Below are positions 7,234 to 10,041 of a stretch of 25,944 nucleotides of DNA, piece by piece. Source of the stretch: a virus; IMG/VR virus record IMGVR_UViG_3300032235_001005, positions 1 to 25,944 of that record; one strand, given 5' to 3'. How positions within the stretch are numbered: the stretch's first letter is position 1; every line of letters begins with the position of its first letter. The translations under genes were made by a program, and so were the position numbers. A model generated the notes under the pieces. The model searched no databases. It saw only the letters and a program-made list of their open reading frames with translations, and was not told the DNA's origin.

Positions 7234-8883
7234 TTATCTATATTCCCACATAAAAGAAACATCACCATACTCATCTGCGTACCATCTATCTCCATCAGAA
7301 TCTACAAAAGTTGACTCACCATCCACACCGTTCTCAATAAAACCAAATGGAGACATATCTTGGTCTATTTGATCTTTTTGTTCTTCATAAATTCTTTTTC
7401 TTATGTCATTATCTGTTAATTCTTTGAAGTAAGGTTGAACAACCAACCAAGAAAAAATTACAAGACACATAGCAAGGTCATCATTGCAACCATCTTCTGC
7501 TTCAAAAGACTGATTCTTTTGAATAAATGTCGTCAATTCACTTATAATATCATAATCATTGACAAGCAATTTATCGTCTTCTACCAAAGTTTTTAAATTA
7601 GAACATCCAACTTTTTTTACAGTTTTGGACATTTTAATTCCAAGTTGAGATTTTTTCCCAGAAAAACCTTGACCAACTAATTGACCTGCCCTACCTCTCA
7701 TAGAGCACATTAAAATATTATCATACTCCAAGTCAAAATGAAGCATAGAAGAAACCTGTTCTCCAATATCATTAACTTCAACTAAAACGTATGCTTTATT
7801 GTATGCCTTTGCTATGTCATTGATGATGTTTGGAAATAATATTGGTTTAATTTCATTATTTCTGTATTTTCCTACAATTGCGTAAGGTAAAGTAGTAATG
7901 TCATAAATTATGAATGCAGAGTAATCATTATTTGTTCCCCTAGAAACATCAACTGTTAGGAGATAATTATGATCTTCTTTTGGTTCTTGATAGACATCTA
8001 AACCTTTGCTTCTCTTTATTGGGTCCTCATAAACTAAAGTTCTAAGTTTTGCAGGTGCAATTAAGGTATCAACTGAACCTAAAAATTCACATTCAAATTC
8101 TTGTGTAAATTGCCTTTCTGAAGTATTTCGTATAGTCTCTTCTTTCCATTTTGCATCTCTTCCTGGAACCTGAGACCAATGAACTTCTAAAGGAATATAA
8201 CCGTTCTTTCCCCTTTCCGCATCGTGCCAAAGTTTGTAAAACATATTCATCCCATTAGGAGTTGAGATGATTATGACTTTTGTGCTAATACCTGATGAAA
8301 TTGTAGGATATACTGAACTAAAGAACTGTTCTGCAATATGATTTGGGATGAAAGCAAATTCATCCAAAAAAATAATATTAAAAGAATTTCCTCGGACAGC
8401 AGAAGATGAAGTAGATGCTGCTACAATTTTACTACCGTTTTCAAGTTCCAAAGAACCTTTGTTCCAAGAACCAACACCCTGCTGTAGCCATTTTGGTAAA
8501 TTTTCATAAGATAATTGAAGTCTACTTAATAATTCCCTAGCAGTTTCTGCTTTGTTTGCTAGAATGGCAATTCTTATATTGTCATTGAATAAAGCATAAT
8601 GCAAAAGATAAGAAACTACGGTAGTAGACTTTCCAGTTTGCCTGGGTAACTTTGCAATATTAAACCTATTATCGTGAAAATTGCTAATAAGTTCTTCTTG
8701 AAAATCATACATTTCAAAAGGAATAAGACCCTTATCAAGAGAAACAATTTTTACATATTTTTTTGCAAAATATATTGGGTTTTCTTTGCACTGGATATAT
8801 TCTTGAATTTGTTCTTGAGTGAATTCAATTTGAACATTTTCTGCCTTTAAATTCGGATTTCCCTTATAATGCTTTTCAGTCAT
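7234..8883 (-). CDS. 17: gp17-like large terminase subunit (packaging ATPase and nuclease)
   Basis: Motor protein that docks on the portal, pumps DNA into the prohead and cuts the concatemer. 549 residues against 610 in T4. ATPase domain: Walker A PRQTGKST (80-87), Walker B IIFLDEFA (170-177, with D174 and E175), coupling motif STPNG (207-211). RNase H-like nuclease domain: TVDVSRG with D312, LVEV with E369, and NDDLAM with D468/D469. The D312-E369 spacing of 57 equals that of D401-E458 in T4. All key residues are present, so it should be active. The start ATG overlaps the stop of the 61-aa gene (ATGA at 8883-8880), indicating translational coupling. Confidence 0.97.
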   Translation of the reverse strand: MTEKHYKGNPNLKAENVQIEFTQEQIQEYIQCKENPIYFAKKYVKIVSLDKGLIPFEMYDFQEELISNFHDNRFNIAKLPRQTGKSTTVVSYLLHYALFNDNIRIAILANKAETARELLSRLQLSYENLPKWLQQGVGSWNKGSLELENGSKIVAASTSSSAVRGNSFNIIFLDEFAFIPNHIAEQFFSSVYPTISSGISTKVIIISTPNGMNMFYKLWHDAERGKNGYIPLEVHWSQVPGRDAKWKEETIRNTSERQFTQEFECEFLGSVDTLIAPAKLRTLVYEDPIKRSKGLDVYQEPKEDHNYLLTVDVSRGTNNDYSAFIIYDITTLPYAIVGKYRNNEIKPILFPNIINDIAKAYNKAYVLVEVNDIGEQVSSMLHFDLEYDNILMCSMRGRAGQLVGQGFSGKKSQLGIKMSKTVKKVGCSNLKTLVEDDKLLVNDYDIISELTTFIQKNQSFEAEDGCNDDLAMCLVIFSWLVVQPYFKELTDNDIRKRIYEEQKDQIDQDMSPFGFIENGVDGESTFVDSDGDRWYADEYGDVSFMWEYR

Positions 8884-9065
8884 AAAGTTTTAAATGCCGA
8901 ATCCAATTCACCTATCAACTCTTGTTGTTGTAAATATAATCTACAATATGATTTAGCAAAATTTCTAGCATCATCCAAATCCATTTTATCAATTACCCTT
9001 GCTTGTTGCTCATAAACTAAAAGTTTATTTAAACTTGTTATTTTTATATCTTCAGGGTTCATCAT
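8880..9065 (-). CDS. Small conserved protein of unknown function preceding gp17
   Basis: 61 residues starting MMNPEDIKI; either of two adjacent ATGs could be used. It contains a hydrophobic/charged helix pattern (LNKLLVYEQQARVIDKMD) followed by ARNFAKSYCRLYLQQQELIGEL, probably two alpha-helices. I recall similar short proteins just before the large terminase gene in marine T4-like phages, but not in T4 itself, and I know of no assigned function. It overlaps the 180-aa gene upstream by 14 bases and gp17 downstream by 4, so all three are likely translated as a coupled set. A role as a packaging accessory is suggested by position only. Confidence 0.7.
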   Translation of the reverse strand: MMNPEDIKITSLNKLLVYEQQARVIDKMDLDDARNFAKSYCRLYLQQQELIGELDSAFKTL

Positions 9066-9594
9066 TTTTTCCTATAAACAATAATGGTTTGGTTGGATCT
9101 TTTAATGCTGGTGCAAACGAAATAACAACAGCACCTGGATATACTTTAACTATCTCATCTGTAATTTCTTTTTTAGTTGGTCTTTTTACTTGTGGGAAAA
9201 ACATTTGAGACTGTATGTATTTCCCCTTCCAAGTTAATAAAATAGCATAAGTTGCCCCAGAAGACTGTATTCTAGTATATTGTTCTTTTACTGGAGATTT
9301 TTCTACCTTTTTTAATCGTGTGTAATAATCGGGAAGTTCATCTAAATGCTGCAATGCAATATTTTTAGCAACATCTAAATTTTGTGTGTGCTCTTTTTCA
9401 ACTTTAATCCCAAGTTCCAACTGTTTTGTCAATTTATCTAAACTAATATTATGTTTTTTTGAAATTTCTTCAACTGATTTGTGTGGTTTTAAACCTGGAC
9501 AAATATCCTTTCCGTGTATGGGGCAATCCACGTTACTCTTTGTATTGTTGCAAAGAGAAGATGCCTCGAAAATAAAAGTATTAAAAGTTTTCAT
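9052..9594 (-). CDS. DUF5661-like protein with a capsid-targeting-type N-terminus
   Basis: 180 residues between the small and large terminase genes. The N-terminus MKTFNTFIFEA aligns residue for residue in its key positions with the T4 internal protein capsid-targeting peptide (MKTYQEFIAEA), including a gp21-type cleavage site I8-F9-E10|A11. Next comes a Cys/His cluster (C15, C24, H27, C32) that could bind a metal. Residues about 45-98 resemble DUF5661, with GIKVEKEHT and the conserved helix LQHLDELPDYYTRLKK. Residues about 102-177 form a second compact domain (YAILLTWKGKY, FFPQVKRPTKKE, VYPGAVVI, KDPTKPLLFIG) that I cannot assign. It has a late box overlapping the gp16 stop. A packaged internal head protein is the best reading; a terminase-associated factor is the alternative. 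Confidence 0.72.
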   Translation of the reverse strand: MKTFNTFIFEASSLCNNTKSNVDCPIHGKDICPGLKPHKSVEEISKKHNISLDKLTKQLELGIKVEKEHTQNLDVAKNIALQHLDELPDYYTRLKKVEKSPVKEQYTRIQSSGATYAILLTWKGKYIQSQMFFPQVKRPTKKEITDEIVKVYPGAVVISFAPALKDPTKPLLFIGKNDEP

Positions 9595-9612: not shown

Positions 9613-10041
9613 TTATTTAGAACTATCAAAACTTTTTTTTAAAAGTTTTTGTAAATCTGAGGTTGAACCAACAAACAAAGCATTGGTTACATTTTTTGGT
9701 CCTTTTGTCGGTTCATCTTCATTTAGTCTCTTCATTTTTTGCTGCAAATCAATTAGTTTCTCAGAAACATCGGCAACATTTTTAATCAATTGACCTGCAA
9801 CTTCAAATGCACGAGGACTATCACTTTGCTGTGCGACATCCAATATATCACTAATTGCTTGTTGACCTTTTTCTATGAGTGAATATAAATTTCCTCTTGT
9901 ATACTCATAATCTGTTTCTGCATTTTCTTTTTTTGGTGAATGCTTATCTAAAGAAATTTTATTTTCTTCAACTATTTCTTTAGAAACTGTTGTTGTTTCA
10001 ATACTTAAAGCATTTTCTATCGAGTCAAATTTGTTTTTCAT
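9613..10041 (-). CDS. 16: gp16-like small terminase subunit
   Basis: Regulatory packaging subunit that binds phage DNA and stimulates the gp17 ATPase. 142 residues against 164 in T4. The central helical hairpin is recognisable: DYEYTRGNLYSLIEKGQQA (44-62), then DSPRAFEVAGQLIKNVADVSEKLIDLQ (74-100). The C-terminal tail NVTNALFVGSTSDLQKLLK (117-135) is near-identical in type to T4 gp16. The first 43 residues are variable and charged. The ATG overlaps the gp15 stop (ATGA, 10041-10038), so translation is coupled. In T4 gp17 follows directly, whereas here two genes intervene. Confidence 0.94.
   Translation of the reverse strand: MKNKFDSIENALSIETTTVSKEIVEENKISLDKHSPKKENAETDYEYTRGNLYSLIEKGQQAISDILDVAQQSDSPRAFEVAGQLIKNVADVSEKLIDLQQKMKRLNEDEPTKGPKNVTNALFVGSTSDLQKLLKKSFDSSK
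9614..9620 (-). promoter_or_regulatory. Late promoter-like box for the 180-aa/61-aa/gp17 unit, at the gp16 stop
   Basis: The minus strand reads TCTAAATAAATA: the variant TCTAAATA, with AATAAATA overlapping it. The gp16 stop codon (9615-9613) lies within it. Spacing to the ATG at 9594 is 19 bases. Confidence 0.55.

Follow-up and report, generated by a model that had tools for sequence, protein, structure and literature searches.

What kind of protein does a marine T4-like phage encode between its two terminase genes, and why does that protein begin like an internal head protein of T4? The question is raised by a 180-aa reading frame with an ATG start (9052–9594, minus strand; the strand had been left out of the initial annotation) in the window, by which we mean the whole 25,944-nucleotide stretch of viral DNA analysed here. 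The gene lies 18 nt after that of gp16, the terminase small subunit (9613–10041, minus strand; phrog_445, E=3.4e-52), and its 3' end overlaps by 14 nt a 61-aa gene (8880–9065, minus strand; phrog_27081) that is also kept beside its orthologues and is followed by gp17, the terminase large subunit (7234–8883, minus strand; Pfam Terminase_6N/6C). Judged by its portal protein, for which the best isolates are Sf-FS3, S-SKS1, S-SSM7 and S-SRM01 (66–69% identical, with Sf-FS3 the closest at 69%), the phage is a T4-like relative of cyanophages.

On sequence grounds, we consider it likely that this reading frame codes for an internal head protein of the T4 type, a tag-led member of a family of modular cargo proteins. 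We infer the packaging, cutting, ejection and final role of this protein from its sequence features, their conservation, an association between the N-terminal tag and virion proteins in cyanophage S-CREM2, and an enrichment of cutting sites at module starts; for a second cut and for ejection, our confidence is lower than for the explanation as a whole.

A putative T4-like targeting peptide and its conservation

The translated frame begins MKTFNTFIFEA, exactly as first read, with a candidate gp21 cleavage site at I8-F9-E10/A11. Residues 1–10 (9565–9594, minus strand) resemble a capsid-targeting sequence, with gp21 predicted to cut between E10 and A11, and residues 4–11 are predicted to be helical in the structure model. 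Comparison with T4 in the initial annotation rested on IPI and IPIII. MKTYQEFIAEA is indeed the start of IPIII; IPI, however, begins MKTFKEFTSTTTPVSTITEA, and the second carrier is IPII. The ten-residue peptide of IPII and IPIII (and of Alt and IPI) shares with the window protein an aromatic residue at position 4, F7, I8, E10 and A11. Mutagenesis of T4 IPIII, as summarised in PMC9026906, linked residues 4 and 7 to targeting and residues 8 and 10 to processing. In an alignment of six orthologues, M1, K2, F4, F7, I8, E10 and A11 are invariant and positions 5, 6 and 9 vary, such that the targeting positions are occupied by the invariant F4 and F7 and the processing positions by I8 and E10. Two homologues about 88% and 83% identical to the window protein both keep the N-terminus, the latter with one substitution, at variable position 6.

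Given the composition of the proteins encoded in the window, about 1e-6 chance occurrences of MK[ST][FY]xxF[IL]xE[AS] would be expected in 19 genes. A degenerate DNA form of the motif has a single match in the window, at the 9052–9594 gene, and 17 matches in 29 other records, against none for its reversed control in those records; in T4, it matches exactly ipII and ipIII. The gp21 gene that had been reported in the same window was borne out by a Peptidase_S77 match (E=1.4e-37; phrog_207, head maturation protease) on the minus strand; its likely start, MKLITEE, gives a gene at 914–1564, with the longest frame spanning 914–1618. We propose that residues 1–10 would serve as a capsid targeting sequence, docking the protein to the prohead core via F4 and F7, and that the phage's own gp21 would remove them after I8-F9-E10, so that the mature protein stays in the head beside the DNA. 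Taken as a whole, the evidence makes it likely that the protein is packaged and is trimmed after E10.

How widely the tag is kept was followed through several searches. Among 80 loci from a motif-only scan of viral contigs, four (L071, L098, L107 and L078) combine the tag with a Cys/His cluster and a DUF5661 domain, and a later module analysis added a fifth (L168); all five keep the gene order gp16, candidate gene, 61-aa gene, gp17. The same scan also recovered families labelled as internal virion or internal head proteins. Because some orthologues had been found through the tag itself, the search was redone with residues 12–180 only, using patterns taken from the DUF5661 core. Loss of the site from homologues had been named in the initial annotation as evidence that would count against packaging; of 51 different proteins whose N-terminus is complete, 31 open with the tag or something very close to it, in nearly every case 5–22 nt after gp16, and 20 are without it.

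A search with DUF5661 only returned mostly long proteins lacking the tag, which was found at the start of just two (L189 and L256) among 80 DUF5661 loci in viral contigs. The tag is therefore tied to the gp16–gp17 locus and to this protein build, not to DUF5661 itself. Conservation of the motif next to DUF5661, raised earlier as a check, thus holds in the six orthologues and fails in most remote DUF5661 proteins. DUF5661 was also considered as a packaging mark in its own right and was ruled out, because in viral contigs the majority of DUF5661 proteins open with a different module and are untagged. Two further occurrences of the domain were recorded. In Flavobacterium phage immuto (L038, 4935–5693), a DUF5661 protein starts MKKSQLRQIIKEALD, a different peptide with an I-x-E/A site, and in Vibrio phage VPs20 (L034, 4401–5669), from an unrelated phage family, DUF5661 lies inside a DUF2213 gene near the terminase.

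Tagged proteins in cyanophage virions

Published virion lists of two cyanophages link the tag to virions indirectly. The NMNAT of S-SCSM1, a virion protein by mass spectrometry (PMC9602691), starts MKSFLQFLKEA. In S-CREM2, 218 translated coding sequences were checked against the virion list of PMC10665884 (Table 3) with a strict start pattern, M[KRQN]x[FYL]xx[FLM][ILVMF]xE, which is looser than the T4 form. This tag was found in 4/51 virion-detected and 0/167 undetected proteins (Fisher p=0.0027), the carriers being a SAM hydrolase (MKDFDSFLEE), gp13 (MKDLHSFLTE), gp136 (MQTFSMFFSE) and a cytidylyltransferase (MKNFSSFLTE). Inclusion of a kinase with a GTG start (VKRFDAFLTE) brings the count to 5/51 versus 0/167 (p=0.0006), an association of four or five proteins from mass spectrometry without N-terminal sequencing. 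Both gp136 and gp137 are encoded between the terminase genes and both were detected in virions; gp136 carries the tag, and gp137 holds the C-terminal domain of the window protein. The prohead targeting and trimming proposed from the outset for the window protein thus draw support from the invariant F4, F7, I8 and E10, from the 31 tag-led homologues and from these S-CREM2 and S-SCSM1 virion proteins.

In the S-CREM2 study, carry-over was left as a possible source of such non-structural virion proteins (PMC10665884). From the sequences, the tag may explain the entry of non-structural proteins into cyanophage heads. T4-like targeting peptides were seen at or near the N-termini of the S-CREM2 SAM hydrolase, Cas9, APH-like kinase and cytidylyltransferase (L349, 3837–5081, 7704–10313 and 10579–12846; L351, 31609–32469); in Cas9, which was detected in virions, the peptide is LRFASFMAE/A near the start. 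Separately, 8/66 tag-led proteins at loci L069–L148 match cytidylyltransferases by Pfam, and proteins of this set also match DUF6267, DUF6321, a GNAT acetyltransferase and a zeta-toxin/AAA_33 kinase-like domain. A search of papers outside subscription journals for work joining capsid targeting with cyanophages found a T4 review only.

Domains of the protein and candidate cutting sites between them

Behind the tag lies the Cys/His cluster C15...C24-P-x-H27-G...C32 (9499–9552, minus strand), whose four Cys and His residues (C15, C24, H27 and C32) are exactly where the initial annotation placed them. Together with P25 and G28 they are invariant in the six orthologues, making the cluster a possible metal site; it falls in a low-confidence region of the structure model. 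The DUF5661 assignment was likewise upheld (residues 42–99; 9298–9471, minus strand; Pfam PF18905, 57.7 bits for a gathering cut-off of 27, E=1.6e-15), and residues 41–99 are helical in the AlphaFold2 model. The C-terminal domain (residues 105–176; 9067–9282, minus strand) is basic and is modelled as strand-strand-helix-strand with pLDDT mostly 88–97. Residues 105–180 have a pI of 9.6, and the predicted mature protein, residues 11–180, has a pI of 9.2 and a charge of about +7. Homologues of this domain include a 'virion protein' of S-SCSM1 and S-CREM2 gp137. Pfam searches of the window protein did not return DUF6321, a domain found at the C-terminus of long relatives.

Sequence profiles compared with solved structures gave nothing convincing for the window protein, and a full-length fold search gave nothing below E=0.3. 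With the C-terminal domain only, no PDB match fell below 1e-3, the best being 8pw2 (E=0.094, prob 0.89), 4njc (prob 0.72) and 4lk0 (prob 0.72). The proteins best matched in this domain-only search are phi29 p6, YkzG and T7 Gp2, small proteins of beta-beta-alpha-beta build; because these matches are non-significant, no host target is claimed, and the modelled likeness hints at DNA or RNA-polymerase binding but does not count as evidence for it. Comparison of the window protein with a defence library returned no match.

Between DUF5661 and the C-terminal domain, residues 102–109 have pLDDT values below 50, and this linker is predicted to be disordered. It holds a predicted second gp21-type site, V102-K103-E104/Q105 (9283–9291, minus strand). 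A cut here may split the protein into a half with the Cys/His cluster plus DUF5661 and the basic C-terminal domain. The Glu at position 104 does not vary and lines up with the tag Glu in proteins from Sf-FS3 and S-SSM7. The Sf-FS3 gene at the same position encodes MKSFQKFLGE/G followed at once by the C-terminal domain, and its E10 aligns with E104. These two relatives (Sf-FS3_117 and S-SSM7_139; 82–83 aa), located like the window gene between gp16 and gp17, carry the C-terminal domain (46% identity) directly behind a tag-like peptide, but lack the Cys/His cluster and DUF5661.

Similar sites recur at module starts in a wider family. Among 143 nonredundant proteins, HMMs of six modules revealed many shuffled arrangements, and sites following the gp21 cutting rule used here, [ILVMF]-x-E, were counted directly before each module. 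They precede the C-terminal domain in 57/64 distinct contexts (shuffle mean 12.9), the CW module in 35/45 (8.1), the DUF6321 (D) module in 48/61 (12.1) and the LW module in 25/44 (7.0); in all four cases, the observed count was reached by 0/2000 shuffles. The KD and DUF5661 modules show weak enrichment, with 29/2000 and 30/2000 shuffles, respectively, reaching the observed value. Because the contexts are related by descent, these counts describe a pattern rather than independent events, and linkers rich in K and E can mimic the site.

Some long members of the family show further peculiarities. In L204, L220, L261, L200, L224 and L257, a near-complete, K[ST][FY]xQFM-like tag peptide is found internally, immediately ahead of the DUF6321-type module, as if two tag-led proteins had been fused; examples are KTFTEFME/DWQ in L204 and KTYSQFMTE/VAAWQ in L257. 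In L235 and L256, the KD module (KDACY...SAYASGALVKC) is interrupted after SAYA by an intein-like insertion, from CVPE... onward; in L235, the module restarts with SGALVKC after ...TGN.

It is possible, though rather unlikely, that gp21 cuts after E10 only. A single 170-aa piece would then neutralise or organise the DNA in the head and play no role in the next host, with VKE104 and the module pattern as by-products of K/E-rich linkers. The basic mature protein would suit such a role, as in T4, whose internal proteins are present in large numbers amid the packaged DNA (PMC3012670); moreover, VKE/Q, with V in the P3 position and Q in P1', is a less typical and weaker site than I-F-E/A. Against this, however, stand the invariance of E104, its alignment with the tag Glu of a stand-alone domain in Sf-FS3, and the recurrence of the same site grammar before four unrelated module types.

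An accessory role in terminase function or head completion, in which the peptide would do no more than bring the protein to the prohead core or portal and the mature head would not retain it, appears improbable. It would fit the strict gp16–gp17 position of the orthologues and the DUF5661 fusion near the terminase of VPs20; relatives of the domains have nevertheless been labelled as, or detected among, virion proteins, and these modules also follow the tag where the surrounding genes are different. That the likeness to IPII and IPIII arose by chance or reflects an N-terminus common among late genes, and that the protein is a non-virion early or regulatory one, is very improbable: many DUF5661 proteins do lack the peptide, but the chance expectation is minute, the reversed pattern found nothing, the positions critical in T4 are invariant, and in S-CREM2 only virion-detected proteins carry the tag.

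A proposed modular cargo family at the gp16–gp17 hotspot

Like the T4 internal proteins, the window protein would have a basic mature form, and a gp21-type protease, here a family match, is encoded in the same genome. It differs from them in a mature part unrelated by Pfam, in its Cys/His cluster, DUF5661 and second domain, in the position of its gene between the terminase genes, and in a second candidate cutting site between its domains. By its sequence, it is best called a protein in which the T4 address tag and protease rule appear to be kept, the cargo and gene position differ, and there are signs of a multiply cut family.

Other occupants of the hotspot set the protein in context. The cyanophage proteins S-SCSM1_29 (labelled a virion protein), S-SM2_109 (T4-GC119), S-CREM2 gp137 (detected in virions) and a 'structural protein' of RN05-S share its gene position and C-terminal domain and, in some cases, DUF5661, yet they are far longer, contain more modules, mostly lack an N-terminal tag and have their candidate sites internally. 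In the phrog_1742 family (a small gene of RN05-S, SSCSM1_30 and Sf-CH8_73), a tag-led start resembling MKTFKQFMSES also precedes a domain similar to the C-terminal domain; these proteins, however, have about 105 aa, lack DUF5661 and sit beside the long protein instead of replacing it. The window protein, short and tag-led, would belong to a cargo family assembled at the gp16–gp17 hotspot from modules joined at gp21-type sites. Its released parts would probably exit together with the DNA and do their work in early infection, with the nucleic-acid machinery of host or phage as a possible target.

More broadly, the hotspot of T4-like marine phages may hold packaged modular polyproteins that gp21 cuts in the head into several effectors accompanying the DNA, with the tag as a cargo address label across cyanophages; we offer this tentatively, as a reading whose chances fall somewhat short of even. 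If it is true, the tagged cargo would include a SAM hydrolase, an APH-like kinase, NMNAT/cytidylyltransferase and a Cas9 nuclease, and a ten-residue N-terminal motif would allow proteins loaded into T4-like heads to be predicted from sequence. It would also supply an address mechanism for non-structural cyanophage virion proteins, which were indistinguishable from carry-over in the S-CREM2 study (PMC10665884), and a function class for the DUF5661 lineage of the window protein together with many hypothetical genes at a known hypervariable spot. One packaged chain, finally, might then yield several products under the action of prohead proteases.
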